From Gemmatimonadota bacterium (GTDB taxonomy: Bacteria; Gemmatimonadota; Gemmatimonadetes; Gemmatimonadales; Gemmatimonadaceae): DNA of 64,000 nucleotides. The notes beneath the pieces were generated by a model that was given only the letters and a program-made list of their open reading frames with translations, was not told the origin of the DNA and did no database searches. Made by a program: the position numbers and the translations under genes. The stretch spans positions 1 through 64,000 of the forward strand of contig JAIOPJ010000036.1 in the NCBI GenBank assembly GCA_021413975.1, written 5' to 3'. Shown here piece after piece: positions 43,119-63,313 of the stretch (position 1 is its first letter; each line of letters opens with the position of its first letter).

Positions 43119-43300
43119 CGTCACTCCAAAAGGCTATGAAATCACTGGCGGACAGAACCGTAAACCTAGTTGGGGACATGGCTTAGGTCAACCCAAGAGA
43201 TGCAACTGTCCCGCTGGCTCGCATACACGAACGTTGACTTGTCCACACGGGCGGGGTAGCTTGGCCCCCCCACCAGATATCCACACCCGCTCGGCACGGA
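43119..43300. other. rpmH-dnaA intergenic region with DnaA boxes, part of oriC candidate
   Basis: 182 bp between divergent rpmH and dnaA. It holds TTGTCCACA at 43239-43247 (one mismatch from TTATCCACA) and ATATCCACA at 43277-43285 (also one mismatch). The first lies between the -35 and -10 of the dnaA promoter, suggesting autoregulation by DnaA. Confidence 0.65.
43234..43262 (+). promoter_or_regulatory. dnaA promoter
   Basis: TTGACT (43234-43239), 17-bp spacer, TAGCTT (43257-43262), start about 31 nt before the ATG. A DnaA box occupies the spacer immediately after the -35. Confidence 0.7.
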
Positions 43301-44698
43301 ATGACCCTTACCGCCACCGAAGTCTGGACGCGCCTGCTCGACCGCGCGCGCACCCAGCTCTCGGATCACATAGTTGACACCTGGCTCTCGCCCCTCACGG
43401 CGGCGGAGTTCTCCGGCGAATCCCTGATCCTCAACGCCCCCGACCAGTTCTCGGTCGAGTGGAACGAGCGTCGGCATTCGGCGATTCTCGAATCGCTCGC
43501 TCCCGTGACGCTCGGTCACCCGTTGAAGATCGAGCTGCGAGTCCACCAAGAGCGGCTACAGCGCTCACAGATGGACCTTTTCGTGCCAGTAAAGGGGCAG
43601 GAGCGCAGCGTCATGGCGCCAGAAAGGCCCCGCGAAAATGTCACCCTGAGCTCCCTCAACGACCGATATACCTTCGATACCTTCGTCGTCGGCAAGTCCA
43701 ATGACCTCGCCGCCGCCGCCGCCGCGGCTGTCTCCCAGGCCCCCGGGAAGACCTACAACCCGCTCTTCTTCTACGGGCCGACCGGTCTCGGCAAGACGCA
43801 CCTCATGCAGGCGATCGCCCAGGACATCATCCGGCGCTCCCCCGCCACCCGCGTCACCTACATCACCACCGAGCAGTTCACCAACGACGTCATCACCTCC
43901 ATCGGCAAGGGCGCGATGCACGACTTCCGTCGTCGCTATCGCGAGACCGACCTCTTCCTCGTCGACGACGTGCACTTCATCGGCGGCAAGAACTCCACCC
44001 AGGAGGAGTTCTTCCACACGTTCAACGCGCTCTACGAGGCGGGTCGCCAGATCGTCCTCACCTCCGACCGTCCGCCGTCGGAGATCCCCAAGCTCGAGGC
44101 CCGCCTCGCCTCGCGCTTCGCGTGGGGCATGGTCGCGGACCTCGGGCAGCCCGACCTCGAGCATCGCATCGCCATCCTCCGCCGCAAAGCGGCGATGGAT
44201 CACCTCGAACACACCATCCCCGACGACGTCCTGCACTTCATCGCGGACCATGTCCAGTCGAACGTGCGCGAGCTCGAGGGTTCCATCATCAAGCTCCTCG
44301 CCTACGCCTCGCTCAAGCACCGGGTCATCACGGTCGAGTTGGCGCGCGAGGCGTTGCGCGACAAGCTGCGGGCGAATGATGCCGCCGCGGCCCGTCCCGA
44401 TCGACAGAATCGGATGGGCGCGATCCAGCAGCGCGTCGCCGGGGAGTGGGGCGTCACCGTCGAAGGGCTCCAGTCCAAGACGCGCACCAAGAACCTCACC
44501 GTGCCCCGACAGGTCGCCATGTACCTCGCGCGCGAGGTGCTCGGCCTCCAGCTCGTGGAGATCGGCCAGGCGTTCGGCGGCCGCGACCATTCCACCGTCA
44601 TCCATTCGCTCGAGCGCGTGGTCGACATGATGAAGGACAGCGGGGACTTCCGCGGCCGTGTGGAGAAGGTGCGGGAAACGGTGCGGCACTCCACGTGA
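43301..44698 (+). CDS. dnaA: Chromosomal replication initiator DnaA
   Basis: 465 aa. Domain I (VWTRLLDRARTQLSDHIVDTWLSPL), short linker, AAA+ domain III (YNPLFFYGPTGLGKTHLMQAIA Walker A; LFLVDDVHFIGGK Walker B; sensor motifs SDRPPSEIPKLEARLASRF), domain IV DNA-binding helix-turn-helix with AREVLGLQLVEIGQAFGGRDHSTVIHS. It melts the origin and loads helicase. Full length. The adjacent 237-bp gap before dnaN contains origin-like elements. Confidence 0.98.
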   Translation: MTLTATEVWTRLLDRARTQLSDHIVDTWLSPLTAAEFSGESLILNAPDQFSVEWNERRHSAILESLAPVTLGHPLKIELRVHQERLQRSQMDLFVPVKGQERSVMAPERPRENVTLSSLNDRYTFDTFVVGKSNDLAAAAAAAVSQAPGKTYNPLFFYGPTGLGKTHLMQAIAQDIIRRSPATRVTYITTEQFTNDVITSIGKGAMHDFRRRYRETDLFLVDDVHFIGGKNSTQEEFFHTFNALYEAGRQIVLTSDRPPSEIPKLEARLASRFAWGMVADLGQPDLEHRIAILRRKAAMDHLEHTIPDDVLHFIADHVQSNVRELEGSIIKLLAYASLKHRVITVELAREALRDKLRANDAAAARPDRQNRMGAIQQRVAGEWGVTVEGLQSKTRTKNLTVPRQVAMYLAREVLGLQLVEIGQAFGGRDHSTVIHSLERVVDMMKDSGDFRGRVEKVRETVRHST

Positions 44699-44935
44699 TT
44701 CACGTGATTACCACACCCGGACACTCGCGGCGCGCGTTTCCCACGCGCTCCCACACCCCCCTCCCCTGAGGTCCCACATCAGGCGGCGGAGTGATACTGA
44801 TGCGGGACAACACCTTCCCGCGTTCGTCCACACTCCACATCTTTCTACTACTGCTACTGTCTTTGTAATTCCAAGATAGAAACAGAAGGCTGATCCCAGC
44901 CTTCCACACGCACCCGACACTCGGCCAGGCACCGA
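44699..44935. other. dnaA-dnaN intergenic: oriC candidate with DnaA-box/DnaA-trio arrangement
   Basis: Contains degenerate DnaA boxes ending CCACA (near 44711, 44751, and TCGTCCACA at 44824-44832, then CTCCACA). CTACTACTGCTACTG follows at 44845-44859; its complement reads 3'-GAT-GAT-GAC-GAT-GAC-5', i.e. DnaA-trio-like repeats on the expected strand and side. Two CACGTG hexamers lie at 44692 and 44701. An AT-richer stretch (TTTGTAATTCCAAGATAGAAA) follows. Confidence 0.6.
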
Positions 44936-46042
44936 ATGCGCTTCACCATCACGCGCGAGAAGCTCCAGGAAGGGTTGGCCGCGGTCACTCCCGCGGTCCC
45001 CAACAAGACGACACTTCCCGTCCTCGCGAATCTCCTCGTCCAGACCACGGACAAGGGGATCCGCATCTCGGGCACCGACCTCGACATCGCCGTCAGCACC
45101 GAGGTCACGGCGGACGTCGAGGCGGTCGGTGCGATCACGATCCCGGCGCGAAAGCTGAGCGAGATCGCGCGCGAGCTCCCGCCGGCTCCGGTGAAGATCT
45201 CCGCGACCGGCGACCAGCGCATCACGCTCGAATGCGGCCGCTCCAAGTTCAAGTTGCTCGGGCTCCCCAAGTCGGAGTTCCCCAGTTTCCCCGCCGTGCA
45301 GTTCGACAAGGCGGTCCGCATCCCGTCAGGCGACCTGCAGAAGCTCATCCAGCATACGGCATTCGCCGCGAGCACCGAGGAGAGCCGGCCGATCCTCAAT
45401 GGCGTGCTCTGGGAGCTGCGCAGCGATCTCATGCGCATGGTGGCCACGAACGGACACCGGCTCGCGAAGATGGAGGTCCCCGTGTCCGGCGGGCAGAAGG
45501 CCGACCTGATCATCCCGCCCAAGGCGCTGGAGCAGATCCGCCGCCTCTTCGCGGCCGAAGAGGAACTGGAGGTCGCCCAGGGCGAGAATCATCTGGGCTT
45601 CCGGTCCCCGTTCACGTCGGTCTTCACGCGCCTCATCGAAGGACCGTATCCCGGCTACGAACAGGTCATTCCGAAGGACAACGACAAGTACGCGATCCTC
45701 GACAAGGCCGCGTTCACGAGCGCACTCAAGCGCATGAGCGTGGTGGCGTCGGACCAGACGCACCGGATCCGCCTGTCGTTCAACGCCGGCATGCTCAAGT
45801 TCTCCGTGAGCACGCCCGACCTCGGCGAAGCCCAGGACGAGTTGCCGATCCGCTACGACGGCGATCCGCTCGACATCGGGTTCAACGCGGCCTACCTGCT
45901 CGAGATCCTTCGGCAGATGCCCACGGAGGAGGTCCGCATGACCTTCCGCGCGCCCGAGCGGGCGTCCACGCTCGAGCCGGAGGGATGGGCCGACCCGACG
46001 AAGTATCTCTGCCTCCTGATGCCGCTGCGCCTGGTGGACTGA
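44936..46042 (+). CDS. dnaN: DNA polymerase III beta sliding clamp
   Basis: 368 aa. Three clamp domains: MRFTITREKLQEGLAAVTPAVPNKTTLPVLANLL; ESRPILNGVLWEL with VATNGHRLAKM; and C-terminal DIGFNAAYLLEIL...KYLCLLMPLRL. It forms a dimeric ring tethering polymerases to DNA; HolA in this window loads it. No close ribosome-binding site other than weak GGC sequences. Confidence 0.98.
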   Translation: MRFTITREKLQEGLAAVTPAVPNKTTLPVLANLLVQTTDKGIRISGTDLDIAVSTEVTADVEAVGAITIPARKLSEIARELPPAPVKISATGDQRITLECGRSKFKLLGLPKSEFPSFPAVQFDKAVRIPSGDLQKLIQHTAFAASTEESRPILNGVLWELRSDLMRMVATNGHRLAKMEVPVSGGQKADLIIPPKALEQIRRLFAAEEELEVAQGENHLGFRSPFTSVFTRLIEGPYPGYEQVIPKDNDKYAILDKAAFTSALKRMSVVASDQTHRIRLSFNAGMLKFSVSTPDLGEAQDELPIRYDGDPLDIGFNAAYLLEILRQMPTEEVRMTFRAPERASTLEPEGWADPTKYLCLLMPLRLVD

Positions 46043-57649: not shown

Positions 57650-58558
57650 TCAGGAGCGCCCGAGTCCCGCCGGGGCCGTGGCCCGGCCGCGCAGCAGCGC
57701 GAGCAGGGCGAGCGTCAGGACGTAGGGCAGCGCGATGAACAGCTGATAGGGCAGCGACCACCCAAGCGACTGGAAGAGATACTGCAGGGCGAAGGCGGCG
57801 CCGAACACGAGCGCGGCGAGTGCGGTGCCGAACGCCGACCAGCGCCCCATCACGACGATCGCGATCGCGATGAATCCCCGACCGGCGCTCATCCCTTCGC
57901 TGAATGTCCCGACCTGTGCGAGCACGAGCGTCGCGCCACAGAGCCCGCCCATCGCACCGGCCACGAGCAACGCGCCCCAGCGGATCCGGCGCGGCGCCGC
58001 CCCGGCCGCCTCGGCCGCTTCCTCGTTCTCGCCCGTCGCCCGCAGCGCGAGCCCGGCATGCGTGCTCCGTAGCCACCAGGCGAGGCACGGCACGAGCGCG
58101 TAGAGCGCATACGTCGGCACGGTCTGACGGAAGAGCGCCGGGCCGATCAGCGGGATCGCCGAGAGTCCGGGGATCGCGAGCGGTGCGATCGTCGAGATCG
58201 AGAGTCCGGCGCCACCGGTGCCATACAGCCCGCGGTAGATGGCACCCGTGAGCCCGAGCCCGAGCATGCTCACCGCGGTCCCGGCGATGATCTGGTCGGT
58301 GCGCAGGTCGACCACGAAGAACGCGAAGACGGCGGTGAGTGCGATCCCCGCGGCCATTCCTCCGGCGAATCCGGCCACGGGACCGCCCACACCCGACGCC
58401 ACCAGTGCGCCCAGGCAACCGGCGATGATCGCGCCCTCGAGGCCGAGGTTGATCACGCCCGCACGTTCGGCCACCAGCTCGCCGAGCGCCGCGAACGCGA
58501 GCGGGGTGGCGGTGCGCACGGCGGCTTCGAGGAACGGGACGAGGATCACCTCGATCAT
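57650..58558 (-). CDS. Nucleoside ABC transporter permease 2 (BmpD/YufQ-like)
   Basis: 302 aa from ATG 58558 (ATGA overlap with the other permease). Family start ATPLAFAALGELVAERAGVINLGLEGAIIAG, with at least eight hydrophobic segments, and LALRATGENEEAAEAAGAAPRRIRWGALLVAGAMGGL, the EAA-like coupling loop of this class. It forms the channel with permease 1. Confidence 0.92.
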   Translation of the reverse strand: MIEVILVPFLEAAVRTATPLAFAALGELVAERAGVINLGLEGAIIAGCLGALVASGVGGPVAGFAGGMAAGIALTAVFAFFVVDLRTDQIIAGTAVSMLGLGLTGAIYRGLYGTGGAGLSISTIAPLAIPGLSAIPLIGPALFRQTVPTYALYALVPCLAWWLRSTHAGLALRATGENEEAAEAAGAAPRRIRWGALLVAGAMGGLCGATLVLAQVGTFSEGMSAGRGFIAIAIVVMGRWSAFGTALAALVFGAAFALQYLFQSLGWSLPYQLFIALPYVLTLALLALLRGRATAPAGLGRS

Positions 58559-59514
58559 GCGGCCTCCGGCCGTGCGACGATTCGTCGCGCACGCACCCGG
58601 TCGCGCACATGCGCCCCCGCGAGCACACCGAGGATGGTGAGCGCGACGAAGACCTGTGCGATCACGGCGGGGACGCCGGCGTCGCGCTGCATCGCGGCGG
58701 CGCCGGCCTCGAGGGCGCCGAAGAAGACCGCACTCACCACCACCCAGCGCGGGTCGAGTCGCGCGAGCAGCGCGACGGCGATCGCGGTGTATCCGTAGCC
58801 CGGCGAGATCCCCTCGTAGAGCGCCCAGGTCACGCCGCCCACCTCGGATGCACCGGCGAGGCCTGCGCAGGCACCGCTCACCAGGAAGACCGCGAACGTC
58901 GTGCGTGCGACGTCCACCCCACCCGCACTCGCCGCGGCGCGCGCCCCGGCGCCGACCACGCGCACGCGGAAACCGCTCGCCGTGCGGGCGAGCCAGAACC
59001 GGCTCACCGTCGCCAGCAGCAGCCCGAGCGCGAAGCCGAGGTGCAATCGCTGACCCTGCAGGAGGAACGGCCAGCGCGCGCTCGCGGCGATGGTCGAGGA
59101 CTGTGGATAGATGCCGGTGGGTTCCTGCAGCGGACCGCGCACGACCCAGCTGAGCAACGCGAGCGCGATGAAGTTCAGCATCAGCGAGCTGATCACTTCG
59201 AGCACGCCATATCGGCGCCGCAAGGTGGCCGCGATGCCGGCCCAGGCCGCGCCCGCCATCATGCCTCCGAGCGCCATCGCGGTCACCGTCACGATCCGCG
59301 GCATCGCACCGAGCCATTGGGCGAGCGCTGTCGCCGCGATCGCCCCCGCGATCAACTGCCCCTCGGCGCCGATGTTGAGCACGCCGGCGCGGAATGCCAG
59401 TGCCACCGCGAGGCCCACGAGCACCAGCGGCGTCGCGCGCACGAGCGTCGCCGACCAGAACGCGTACGACGATCCGAAGGCGCCGTCCCAGAGTGCGACC
59501 AGGGCGTCCATCAC
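58555..59514 (-). CDS. Nucleoside ABC transporter permease 1 (BmpC/YufP-like)
   Basis: 319 aa from GTG 59514 or ATG 59511. RATPLVLVGLAVALAFRAGVLNIGAEGQLIAGAIAA is the signature; VISSLMLNFIALALLSWVV and GFRVRVVGAGARAAASAGGVDVARTTF follow. About ten membrane segments. Pairs with permease 2 and the ATPase. All junctions in this operon overlap. Confidence 0.93.
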   Translation of the reverse strand: MMDALVALWDGAFGSSYAFWSATLVRATPLVLVGLAVALAFRAGVLNIGAEGQLIAGAIAATALAQWLGAMPRIVTVTAMALGGMMAGAAWAGIAATLRRRYGVLEVISSLMLNFIALALLSWVVRGPLQEPTGIYPQSSTIAASARWPFLLQGQRLHLGFALGLLLATVSRFWLARTASGFRVRVVGAGARAAASAGGVDVARTTFAVFLVSGACAGLAGASEVGGVTWALYEGISPGYGYTAIAVALLARLDPRWVVVSAVFFGALEAGAAAMQRDAGVPAVIAQVFVALTILGVLAGAHVRDRVRARRIVARPEAA

Positions 59515-60974
59515 GGCGCCCCGAGCAACGCGCGCGCGTACGGGGTGAGGTCCTCGGGGTCCGACGCCGGCGTCACCTCGCGCACCGAGCCGTTGAAGCA
59601 GGCCACGACACGCGTTGCCACGGCGAGGACCTCGTCGAGGTCGCTCGAGTACATGACGACCGCCGGTGGCGGCGAGCCGCCCGCGCGCGCGATCTCGTCG
59701 AGCACGCGCGCCGAGGCGCGAAGGTCGAGGCCCCGCGTCGGGTTCTCGGCCACGAGGGCCGATCCGGCCAGGTGGCGCTCGCGGCCCACGACGAACTTCT
59801 GCTGATTGCCGCCCGAGAGCGCGCGCGCCGGTGACTCGGGGCCGTCCGCGCGCACGTCGAGGTCGCGCAGGATCCCGGTGGTCGCGTGACGCATCGCCTC
59901 CCAGGGCAGCCTGCCGTGCGCCGCGCCCGCGCGGGCGAGCGCGAGATTCTCGGTGAGCGTGAGCTCCGGGATCAGTGCGTCGTGCAGCCGGTCCTCGGGG
60001 ATGAAGCCCACACGCGCCGGCCGTGTCGCGCGGCCCCGCGTCGGCTCGAGCCGACCGGCGAGGATCCGCAGCAACTCGTGCTGTCCCGCGCCCTCCACCC
60101 CGATCACCCCGACGACCTCACCGGCCCGCACGTCGAGCGTCACGTCGCGGAGACGCGTCACGCCTCGTGCGTCGACGTAGTCGACGCCATCGAGGTGCAG
60201 CACCGGCTCGGCATCGGTCGGGATCATGGGGCTCGGCCGGCTCGCATGGAGCGCCGGTCCCGCCTCGCCGACGAGCGCGGCGATCACCTGCGTCTCCGTC
60301 ACTCCGCCACGGCTTCCCGCGAGCACGGTGCGTCCGCGTCGCAGGACCGTGATGTCGTCGGCGAACTCCAGCGCGTCACGGAGCTTGTGGGTGATCAGCA
60401 CGATCGTGCCGCCGCCGGCGGCGAAACGACGGGACCATCGCAGCAGGTCGGCGCCCTCCGACGGCGAGAGCACGGCGGTCGGCTCATCGAGGATCAGCAG
60501 GCGCGCGTCATGTGCGAGGGCCTTGATGATCTCGAGACGTTGCTGCGCGCCGACGGGCAGGTCGGCGACACGTGACTCCGGCTCGAGCACGAGTCCCGAG
60601 TCCTTCGCGATCGCCGCGATCCGCTTCGTCGTCGCGTCGCGGTCGAAGCGTCCCCGTCCGCCGAGCGCGACGTTCTCGGCGACCGTCATCGCCGGTACGA
60701 GCATGAAGTGCTGATGCACCATGCCCATGCCGAGGGCGATGCCGTCACGGCTCGAGCGCAGGGTGGTGCGCACGCCGTTCACCCAGAGCTCCCCGGCGTC
60801 GGGAGCGAGCAGGCCGAAGGCGATCCGCATCAACGTGGTCTTGCCGGCGCCGTTCTCGCCGAGCAACGCGTGGATCGTGCCGCGGCGGACCGTGCACGAT
60901 GCGCCGTCGAGGGCGACCGTACGCCCGAAGGACCGGCGCACGTCACGGAGGACGAGCGCATCGGACCCGCTCAC
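59511..60974 (-). CDS. Nucleoside ABC transporter ATPase (double cassette)
   Basis: 487 aa from GTG 60974. First cassette is complete: Walker A GENGAGKTT, Q-loop HQHFMLVPAMTV, LPVGAQQRLEIIKAL signature, DEPTAVLSP. The second has a degenerate Walker A (GVEGAGQHE) and LSGGNQQKFVVGRE, as is normal for RbsA/YufO-type fused ATPases. It energises import with the two permeases and the BMP-type binding lipoprotein. It overlaps the nif3 gene by GTGA. Confidence 0.94.
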   Translation of the reverse strand: MSGSDALVLRDVRRSFGRTVALDGASCTVRRGTIHALLGENGAGKTTLMRIAFGLLAPDAGELWVNGVRTTLRSSRDGIALGMGMVHQHFMLVPAMTVAENVALGGRGRFDRDATTKRIAAIAKDSGLVLEPESRVADLPVGAQQRLEIIKALAHDARLLILDEPTAVLSPSEGADLLRWSRRFAAGGGTIVLITHKLRDALEFADDITVLRRGRTVLAGSRGGVTETQVIAALVGEAGPALHASRPSPMIPTDAEPVLHLDGVDYVDARGVTRLRDVTLDVRAGEVVGVIGVEGAGQHELLRILAGRLEPTRGRATRPARVGFIPEDRLHDALIPELTLTENLALARAGAAHGRLPWEAMRHATTGILRDLDVRADGPESPARALSGGNQQKFVVGRERHLAGSALVAENPTRGLDLRASARVLDEIARAGGSPPPAVVMYSSDLDEVLAVATRVVACFNGSVREVTPASDPEDLTPYARALLGAP

Positions 60975-61750
60975 AGTCCGGTGGGCGAGTGGACGAAGTC
61001 CCAGGGCAACGCGAATCGGTCGCTCAGGTGCGCGGCGAGTGCGCGCACGCCGAGCGTCTCGGTCGCGTAGTGACCGGCGTAGATGATCACGAGGCCGCGC
61101 TCCGGAGCGTCCACCGCGCTCCAATGCGGGCCCTCGCCGACGATCAACGTGTCCACGCCGGTCGCGTACGCCTCGCGAAGAGTCTCCACCTGCGCGCCGG
61201 CACCTGAACAGATCGCCCACCGTCGCGTGCGGTGCCCGGTCGGGATCGACGAGGCGACCGCGTGGTGACCCAGGGGAGCCGCCCAGGCACGCACGCGGTC
61301 GATCAACGCGGCGGTGCCGAGGTCCGACTCACCGCGCACGCCGCAGTCGATCTGCTGATACCGTGCATAACCGCCACTCACCGCGAGGCCGAGCTCGCCG
61401 GCGAGCAGCCGCGAGTTGCCGAAGGTCGCGTGCGCATCGAGCGGCAGGTGCGCGGAGTACACGGCGATGTCGGCGGCGAGCAGGGTGCGTACCCGGGCGA
61501 GGTGCGGTCCGACGAGGGGCTGCAGCCCGCCCCAGAAGAGTCCGTGATGCACGAGGAGCAGGTTGGCGCCTGCCGCGGCCGCCGCGTCGATCGTCCGTTG
61601 CGAGCAGTCGACCGCCGCCGCGATCCTCCGGACGGGCCCACGGTGCGCGACCTGGATGCCGTTCAGCGCCGCCGGGTAGTCGGGCGTGCCCGCGATGTCG
61701 AGCAACGCATCGAGATGCGCAGCGATCGTCGCGAGCGAGGGCTCGGTCAC
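60971..61750 (-). CDS. Nif3-like dinuclear metal-binding protein
   Basis: 259 aa. Nif3/YbgI family: YPAALNGIQVAHRGPVRRIAAAVDCS, metal-binding LLLVHHGLFWGG (HH), VYSAHLPLDAHATFGNS, and C-terminal LVIIYAGHYATETLGVRALA with H and E ligands. GTP cyclohydrolase-like fold of unresolved function. Short form, no inserted PII-like domain. Embedded between the substrate-binding lipoprotein and the ATPase by 4-nt overlaps at both ends. Confidence 0.93.
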   Translation of the reverse strand: MTEPSLATIAAHLDALLDIAGTPDYPAALNGIQVAHRGPVRRIAAAVDCSQRTIDAAAAAGANLLLVHHGLFWGGLQPLVGPHLARVRTLLAADIAVYSAHLPLDAHATFGNSRLLAGELGLAVSGGYARYQQIDCGVRGESDLGTAALIDRVRAWAAPLGHHAVASSIPTGHRTRRWAICSGAGAQVETLREAYATGVDTLIVGEGPHWSAVDAPERGLVIIYAGHYATETLGVRALAAHLSDRFALPWDFVHSPTGL

Positions 61751-62769
61751 GGTGTTGGCCCGGTGGGGAGCGTGAGTTGATGACGGGCGAAGCGCGCCCG
61801 CGTCGAATCGATCCGCGCTGTCGTCGCCGCAGGGAGCACGGCGACCGCCGGGTTCGGGACCCAGCGCACCACGTCGCTCGAAGTGTCGAGACGCACGATG
61901 CGCGGCGAGAATGCACCGGCCTTCACCTCGCGTGCCACGAGCAGGAATGCGTGCGGCAGGTCGATCACCACGGAGCCGAGGGTGACCGTGGGGGCGACCC
62001 CGTTCTGGTCGGCGTTCGCGCCGATGATCCAGACTCCTTTCGATTCGCGCACGGCCTGGAAGACGCCGAGTCCGGCGGCATCGGCGTTCTGGAAGATGAC
62101 GTCCGCGCGCCGTGCGATCTGGGCGAGCGCCTGTTCCTTGCCGGCGCCGGCATCGTCCCAGTTCCCGATGAAGGCGCCAAGGACGGAGATGTCCGGGCGC
62201 ACGGCGCGGGCTCCGGCCGCGAACGCGGTGAAGCTGGCGGTGACCGGCGGGAGCTCGGTTCCGCCGATCGTGCCGAGCACTCCGGTCTTCGAGACGGCTG
62301 CGGCCGCCATTCCCGCCAGATAGGAGGGTTCGTCGAACGCGAACGAGAGCGCTGCGATGTTCGGTCCTACGCCGGTGCCGCCGGTGGTCACATACATGGT
62401 CTTCGGATACTCAGGGCCGACCCGCTGCGCGGCGTCCTGGAACTCGAACCCATGTCCGATGACGAGCGCGTACCCTTGCGCCCCGTACTGGCGGAAGTTC
62501 TCCTCGAACTCGGCGGGGGTCTTGGTCTGGATGTGACTGATCTCGGCGCCGAGCGAATCGCGGATCCGTTCGAGACCCTGATAGGCGGAGGAGTTCCACG
62601 CCTGATCGGTGATCGGGCCCGGGGTCAGAAGGGCGACGCGAAACGCGTTCTCTCCACTGGACGCGCTCTCCCGGGACGCGCACGCGCCTCCAAAAAGCAC
62701 GGCGCTGTGGATAACGAGCATCGACCGCGCGATACCGGACAATCGATAGCCATGCAAACCGTTATACAT
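61747..62769 (-). CDS. BMP-family (BmpA/Med) substrate-binding lipoprotein
   Basis: 340 aa from ATG 62769, chosen because it gives a lipoprotein signal (RLSGIARSMLVIHSAVLFGGACAS); ATG 62721 would leave too little n-region. Mature part FRVALLTPGPITDQAWNSSAYQGLERI, IGHGFEFQDAA, GGTGVGPNIAALSFAFDEPSYLAGMAAA is typical of nucleoside-binding BMP proteins. First gene of the import operon. Its 5' end and leader lie in an AT-rich stretch. Confidence 0.92.
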   Translation of the reverse strand: MYNGLHGYRLSGIARSMLVIHSAVLFGGACASRESASSGENAFRVALLTPGPITDQAWNSSAYQGLERIRDSLGAEISHIQTKTPAEFEENFRQYGAQGYALVIGHGFEFQDAAQRVGPEYPKTMYVTTGGTGVGPNIAALSFAFDEPSYLAGMAAAAVSKTGVLGTIGGTELPPVTASFTAFAAGARAVRPDISVLGAFIGNWDDAGAGKEQALAQIARRADVIFQNADAAGLGVFQAVRESKGVWIIGANADQNGVAPTVTLGSVVIDLPHAFLLVAREVKAGAFSPRIVRLDTSSDVVRWVPNPAVAVLPAATTARIDSTRARFARHQLTLPTGPTP

Positions 62770-62827
62770 AATGTCGTTAACAGACAAAAGAAAACATATG
62801 AATAAAGCCAACAAAAACTGTGGATAA
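62706..62827 (-). other. AT-rich stretch bounded by two perfect DnaA boxes (possible second origin element)
   Basis: TGTGGATAA (complement of TTATCCACA) occurs at 62706-62714 and 62819-62827, same orientation. Between them about 62740-62818 is strikingly AT-rich (TTATACATAATGTCGTTAAC, AAAACATATGAATAAA) in an otherwise GC-rich sequence. The first box lies inside the BMP gene, the second upstream of it. Perfect boxes are absent from the dnaA locus. Confidence 0.55.
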
Positions 62828-62872
62828 TCAAGAATTCGGAGTTCCAGCCGACTCGTTAGTGGCTCGAAACTG

Positions 62873-63313
62873 TCACATCTTTCTGGCGGCTCTGACGTCC
62901 TTTGCATCGCGTGTGTCTTCCGGCCGACCCACGAGCGCCAGTTCAGTCATCTTCACCGACCCGTTGATCCGCGCTCCTTCCATTACCACGATCGACTTCG
63001 TGAGGATGTCTCCGTTGACGACAGCGGTGGTCTGAAGCTCGAGCCGAGCGCTCGCGCTCACCGCCCCATCGATGACGCCGCCGACCACCACTTCCTCTGC
63101 CGTCACATCCCCGTGGATCGCCCCTTCCTTGGCCAGCATCACCTGGCGGGCACGCCGAACGCTGCCGTCAACGCGGCCTTCGACCTTCAGCACGCCGGTG
63201 CACTCGATGTCGCCGTGAACCGTTGTGCCGGCGGAGATGATCGAGAGTGTGTTCTCCGCCGCGCCCCGGGCAGCAGAACGCCCGGAGTTCTCATCCTTGC
63301 CGAAGATCGCCAT
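62873..63313 (-). CDS. Bactofilin
   Basis: 146 aa. Central bactofilin beta-helix: TLSIISAGTTVHGDIECTGVLKVEGRVDGSVR, VMLAKEGAIHGDVTAEEVVVGGVIDGAV, VVNGDILTKSIVVMEGARINGSV. It polymerises into cytoskeletal filaments and scaffolds other proteins. It is downstream of parB and the membrane protein; in Myxococcus bactofilins anchor ParABS, so a similar link is plausible. Confidence 0.95.
   Translation of the reverse strand: MAIFGKDENSGRSAARGAAENTLSIISAGTTVHGDIECTGVLKVEGRVDGSVRRARQVMLAKEGAIHGDVTAEEVVVGGVIDGAVSASARLELQTTAVVNGDILTKSIVVMEGARINGSVKMTELALVGRPEDTRDAKDVRAARKM

Follow-up and report, generated by a model that had tools for sequence, protein, structure and literature searches.

On the minus strand, parA and parB are followed by an ORF without Pfam match, a bactofilin gene, a site with two putative DnaA boxes and then the genes for a BMP lipoprotein, an ABC ATPase and a permease. 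The bactofilin gene is located at 62873..63313 (minus strand; PF04519, E 1.9e-24) of the window, i.e. the complete 64-kb stretch of DNA that was analysed. The BMP gene (61747..62760, start codon not settled; minus strand; PF02608, E 1.5e-49) encodes a BMP/PnrA-like ABC substrate-binding lipoprotein. The next importer genes, for an ABC transporter ATPase that contains two ABC stretches (59511..61220; PF00005) and the importer permease (58555..59514; PF02653), have the same orientation. Box 1, the upstream box, is an exact match to TTATCCACA at 62819..62827 in the gap between the bactofilin and BMP genes, while box 2, with identical sequence, resides downstream at 62706..62714 in the BMP signal-peptide codons GTT ATC CAC A. 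Both are on the minus strand, their starts are 113 bp apart and no other exact TTATCCACA box is present in the window. The patch between them (62762..62821) is 73% AT, in a window with 69.5% GC, and constitutes the window's AT maximum at each of six scales (30, 60, 80, 100, 120 and 200 bp). The first-pass annotation, made from the sequence alone, had thus correctly described the window's only consensus boxes as lying 113 bp apart in the same orientation, around its most AT-rich stretch and 18 kb from dnaA. It had placed the site between a nucleoside-importer operon and bactofilin-parB; the neighbours are as described, but the site is not wholly intergenic because the box at 62706 falls inside the BMP reading frame.

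The plus-strand genes dnaA (43301..44698; PF00308, PF08299, PF11638) and dnaN (44936..46042; PF00712, PF02767, PF02768) lie on one side of the box pair. A perfect parS is found at contig position 65722, so the pair is located between the dnaA-dnaN region and parS. This parS (C33:65722-65737, beside parA) is the sole perfect one in the genome and is accompanied by a second copy with two mismatches at 65760-65775; these two are the only parS sequences with up to two mismatches in the genome, and none with up to three mismatches occurs in the 64-kb window. A riboswitch or other known RNA was considered for the box site and discarded, the sole nearby Rfam match being far under the gathering score.

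Allowing for one mismatch, six DnaA boxes are present in the window, the pair included, compared with a mean of 1.65 in shuffled sequences. The whole genome (3.08 Mb, 56 contigs) contains eight exact TTATCCACA boxes, and for eight randomly placed sites about 0.002 pairs are expected within 113 bp.

A bactofilin orthologue was detected in 12 of 17 genomes of the genus, the other five giving no match, and the downstream sequence was read in all 12. Both TCCACA cores are kept in 11 of these, at a spacing of 113 bp in ten and of 112 bp in G010. Absence of the boxes from close relatives, which the first-pass annotation had named as an observation that would count against it, is not seen in these 11 genomes. 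The exact 9-mer is present in 3/11 genomes for box 1 and in 8/11 for box 2. In a gapless alignment of the 11 sequences, with one gap placed by hand in G010, mean pairwise identity amounts to 0.85 for box 1 and 0.95 for box 2, compared with 0.43 for the spacer, 0.31 for 60 bp of upstream sequence and 0.39 for the stretch past box 2. Genome G024 was left out of this alignment on account of its divergent boxes: it features two copies of TGTTCCACA 10 bp apart, and its box 2 reads TTATCAACA.

Conservation is not confined to the two 9-mers. A TTGTkGG element follows immediately after box 1 (62808..62814, minus strand; alignment columns 13-19), and 27-37 bp past the first base of box 1 the genus alignment shows a second element in its columns 27-37, with the consensus CATTTGTTTAC and the form CATATGTTTTC in our sequence (62790..62800, minus strand). 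Upstream of box 1, three phased units of 11 bp with the consensus CAGTAaCGnGC (62840..62872, minus strand) were recognized by their CA periodicity. A CA dinucleotide occurs here three times, at steps of exactly 11 bp, in 8/11 loci of the genus, with 0.15 expected from shuffles, and none of the 11 has any of the other periods (7-10 and 12-15). Our own locus is among the three that lack the triple CA, two of its three units retaining the dinucleotide. Outside the genus the array was seen in G041 only (1/11, with 0.26 expected). An 11-bp unit would correspond to a 9-bp box plus 2 bp, and the units are candidates for weak DnaA sites.

The position of box 2 allows the DNA word to be considered separately from the protein. 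In our genome and most others, the box is read in the frame NTT ATC CAC A within the lipoprotein signal peptide. The NTT codon, which holds the first two bases of the box, is present in all 12 genomes of the genus, a count that does not represent 12 independent events as the genomes are related, and the residue it encodes varies between V, F, L and I. As background, 5.1% of the NTN codons of 833 predicted ORFs have T as their third base. The CAC codon is retained in 11/12 genomes. Histidine occurs in 4 of 38 candidate lipoprotein signal peptides, a count of little weight, as BMP orthologues account for two of the four hits and the remaining two are of unstated identity. At box 2, a likely replication-protein site clearly constrains a signal peptide: the DNA word stays while the amino acid drifts.

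Bactofilin matches in other genera of the family stem from 22 genomes, and the loci of the best 11 of these 22 were read. TCCACA is present downstream of bactofilin in nine of the 11, whereas 60 letter permutations of the core gave a mean of 0.73 at the same loci and the core on the opposite strand was found at none of them. G044 and G046, both among the best 11 of 22, lack TCCACA beside bactofilin. In several of the loci box 2 has become TCAACA, and in G048, G052, G056 and G084 the boxes are spaced by 10 bp. Ten of the 11 loci share a contig with dnaA, at a distance of 17 to 25 kb. In G048, tandem boxes follow bactofilin and a BMP match is missing there, which favours a role tied to the locus over one tied to BMP. 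Among ten BMP genes situated away from bactofilin, two carry boxes. In G077, the gene lies about 111 kb from dnaA and has three TTNTCCACA boxes, two of them in tandem, 10 bp apart, in signal-peptide codons; in G028, 18 kb from dnaA, two exact tandem boxes are likewise found in BMP signal-peptide codons (reading frames assigned by eye in both cases). TCCACA is absent from the other eight, including all five genomes read of the genus g10. Beyond the family but within the order, 14 loci among the best 30 bactofilin matches (25 of which were new loci and were read) were examined, and an exact box after bactofilin was seen in one of them (G040). Across genera, the boxes hence accompany BMP in G077, persist at the bactofilin locus of G048, where BMP is missing, and are absent from several lineages. 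An exclusive link to BMP and an exclusive link to the locus were both discarded, as each pattern occurs and neither holds throughout.

The box pair is not the only place where DnaA boxes gather. Upstream of dnaA, the box TTGTCCACA (43239..43247, plus strand) overlaps a likely dnaA promoter assigned by eye, at the end of its TTGACT and in its spacer, and a second DnaA-type box, ATATCCACA, is located at 43277..43285 (plus strand; box scan and genus alignment). The likely promoter, TTGACT-17-TAGCTT with the DnaA box across it, is contained in positions 43235-43285 of the window. All 14 aligned sequences of the genus have GTTGACTTnTCCACA at the likely dnaA promoter; the dnaA alignments exclude G004, in which the gene is cut at a contig end, and that of the upstream region also excludes G012, whose contig begins at dnaA. 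Judged by these boxes, autoregulation of dnaA is probable. In 13 genomes of the genus, 43 exact boxes were counted, compared with 20 for a reversed control pattern; nine of them reside at the box site, 17 at dprA-hemW and five at the dnaA promoter, which leaves 12 in other places (tally by locus and control total compiled by hand).

The dprA-hemW region of our genome (C36:153088-153954) is a second DnaA-box locus, with three exact boxes (153088-153695) and TTTTCCACA inside hemW. At least one TTNTCCACA box occurs there, from 1.1 kb before to 1.4 kb into hemW, in all 11 genomes of the genus that were examined out of 17, a figure biased upward as nine of the 11 were reached through an exact-box match. 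In other genera, boxes were present at 1/28 such loci, chosen regardless of boxes (28 of 40 matching genomes). In G012, the locus lies at 1.894 Mb of a 3.258-Mb contig that starts at dnaA. Some 170-240 bp before hemW there is a conserved AT-rich imperfect palindrome with the consensus TTTGAGAATTTACTTTAAGTCATTCTCA, which visual inspection recognized in 13 of the 14 genomes aligned, including two of one other genus without boxes at dprA-hemW. Tandem copies of TTTTCCACA, 10 bp apart, were noted in two genomes of the genus, at G005:C1:1143891-1143909 and G022:C1:273940-273958. Furthermore, our genome (C1:95287-97266) and relatives have an ORF of some 590-850 aa, two parts of which match the ATPase region of DnaA; it was found in 10/17 genomes of the genus and 11/14 other family genomes searched.

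Our preferred interpretation, to which we assign a probability of just under one half, is that the box pair is a conserved DnaA-binding control element acting on BMP, not an origin, and that it also holds DnaA near oriC. From the sequence we infer DnaA as the binder, a BMP promoter between the boxes, looping and the direction of regulation. DnaA would occupy box 1 upstream and box 2 within the start of the BMP gene and, from both, could bridge or wrap the putative promoter region of BMP, as the AT-rich, easily bent segment between the boxes, their same direction and the fixed 113 bp would permit. Expression of the importer might then be lowered or timed as DnaA-ATP rises. Same direction, fixed distance and an AT-rich middle together suggest a defined nucleoprotein structure, and their placement where the BMP gene begins points to regulation of the nucleoside importer. 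A second effect, on the supply of DnaA, is suggested by the distance of 18 kb to the predicted dnaA-dnaN origin: DnaA bound to the boxes would be kept 18 kb from oriC, and the site, duplicated soon after initiation, could draw DnaA away from the origin. The first-pass annotation had offered oriC, a titration site or control of nucleoside import; the latter two are retained here, given the conserved orientation, spacing and constraint at the DNA level, and the first is not.

A regulatory role at BMP gains support from the likely dnaA promoter in the window, which also carries boxes. If boxes belong to a DnaA-regulated promoter, they should follow the gene; they are kept with BMP in G077 and G028, two of the ten BMP genes away from bactofilin. 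Evidence against such a switch comes from eight of the ten distant BMP genes and from G044 and G046, all without TCCACA, and from the BMP-free boxes of G048. A scan for one promoter type, the sigma-70-like one (9/12 matches required), returned none on the BMP strand and a single match on the opposite, plus strand. Should BMP be the target, replication state would be linked to nucleoside uptake. Judged by gene content, the genomes probably belong to the Gemmatimonadota. The sections available to us of published work on Gemmatimonad origins and DnaA boxes, including PMC5109545, hold no mention of the site. A conserved, fixed-spacing pair of DnaA boxes in a different bacterial group offers a concrete, testable control site.

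A possible but somewhat unlikely alternative is that the pair primarily acts like datA, collecting DnaA-ATP beside oriC and inactivating or withholding it, with BMP as a mere neighbour. According to the accessible parts of PMC5742627 and PMC4585315, minimal datA from E. coli consists of three boxes, two of high and one of low affinity, all in one direction, is situated near oriC and contains an IHF site, and the intervals between its boxes matter. The common direction, AT-rich middle and fixed interval of our boxes are all in line with this, as are the distance of 17 to 25 kb from dnaA that recurs in other genera and the boxes that G048 retains without BMP. With its eight exact boxes the genome is poor in such sites, so a few strong ones could matter; two boxes are nevertheless few for titration. 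Moreover, box 2 is fixed to the BMP start even in G077, where that gene is far from dnaA. A predicted IHF site between the boxes does not stand out: matches with up to two mismatches occur in 11/11 spacers, which is not above chance with 8.59 expected in shuffles. An extension of this idea, which we deem unlikely, would have a datA-like DnaA-inactivating element, placed partly in codons, form a separately evolved datA/DARS-like pair with the second box locus at dprA-hemW, far from the origin.

The boxes might also serve as operator for another DNA-binding protein whose site resembles a DnaA box. The conserved TTGTkGG after box 1, which extends beyond the 9-mer, and the change of box 2 to TCAACA in some genomes point in this direction. 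The TCCACA core, however, is also found at the likely dnaA promoter and in the dnaA-dnaN module (see below), and in other genera the boxes occur in tandem, 10 bp apart, rendering a foreign operator improbable.

That the site is oriC itself or a second origin, as had been proposed, appears very improbable, even though strong boxes surround the window's AT maximum. The gap between dnaA and dnaN contains, at 44824-44859, the arrangement TCGTCCACA-C-TCCACA-TCTTT-CTACTACTGCTACTG on the plus strand, i.e. a predicted oriC-type unwinding module. Its first DnaA box (44824..44832) keeps the TCCACA core in 14/15 genomes of the genus and the second core (44834..44839) is kept in 13/15. The DnaA-trios (44845..44859) begin with a CTACTAC/CTACTGC run in all 15. 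By pattern, the trio run is also present in 11/14 other family genomes and looks degenerate in the remaining three, this second count covering the trio run alone. The basal unwinding module of the B. subtilis type comprises two DnaA boxes and then DnaA-trios (3'-GAT-5' repeats), as described in the accessible text of PMC10201434, and the dnaA-dnaN gap has the same order. The 62.7-kb site differs, as no trios were seen by eye at 62.7-62.83 kb in the genus alignment, and it is partly protein coding. An oriC at the box site was accordingly set aside in favour of the module at 44.82-44.86 kb. This agrees with an origin at 43-45 kb, which the first-pass annotation had regarded as incompatible with its proposal, though as a sequence prediction and not as a mapped origin.

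GC skew, recommended for placing the origin, is not decisive: it neither proves a dnaA-dnaN origin nor indicates the box site. Skew corrected for gene direction at fourfold sites shows a step at dnaA that is sharp in three of four genomes and gradual in G022. It is followed by a near-zero plateau up to +25 to +60 kb, after which skew is positive. This plateau covers the box site at +19.4 kb, where a clear rise is seen in none of the four, and skew does not place the origin exactly. The best single change point lies +1.4 kb from the dnaA start in G000, which speaks for dnaA, and at +45, +30 and +58 kb in G012, G022 and G005, respectively, which together with the plateau speaks in favour of the origin reading of the box site. 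Cumulative minima were obtained at +24.5 kb (G000), +54.2 kb (G012), +23.6 kb (G022) and +57.6 kb (G005), those of G000 and G022 being closer to the box site than to dnaA. The fit favours dnaA over +19.4 kb in three genomes, in G005 barely (847.6 vs 852.5), and +19.4 kb over dnaA in G022 (558.0 vs 594.3). In our own contig C33, the plateau reaches from dnaA to about +40 kb and, similarly in G012, G022 and G005, it is flanked by strong opposite skews; the four 20-kb stretches checked gave no Rfam match at the gathering score. Finally, chance boxes in an AT-rich gap are extremely improbable: 12 of the 43 exact boxes in the genus do fall outside the three main loci, but conservation beyond that of the surroundings, the fixed spacing and the codon evidence argue from sequence that the pair is not due to chance.

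Resetting of DnaA activity away from oriC is well understood for E. coli and, to some extent, for B. subtilis. With datA, the DnaA-inactivating (DDAH) locus of E. coli, the box pair shares boxes of one direction around a bendable segment, a conserved interval and a location near oriC, with strength and affinity predicted from sequence in our case. As far as the accessible parts of the datA papers allow a comparison, our site differs in that one box forms part of a coding sequence and in the bacterial group concerned. For the third, low-affinity box, essential for datA function, the 11-bp units are candidates only, and for the IHF site of datA the spacer provides matches at shuffle level (11/11 vs 8.59). 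In B. subtilis, clusters of DnaA boxes close to oriC hold DnaA (Okumura 2012, as cited in the part of PMC11019786 available to us); our site would resemble these as a group of boxes off the origin that holds DnaA. DnaA furthermore controls nrdAB, and thereby DNA precursor supply, as well as dnaA itself, according to the accessible text of PMC8203912. Our preferred reading, a DnaA-operated element at BMP, would share with these promoters that DnaA boxes stand where a gene serving the supply of DNA precursors begins; here, the gene encodes the binding protein of a nucleoside importer, the second box is embedded in signal-peptide codons and the two boxes are set 113 bp apart.
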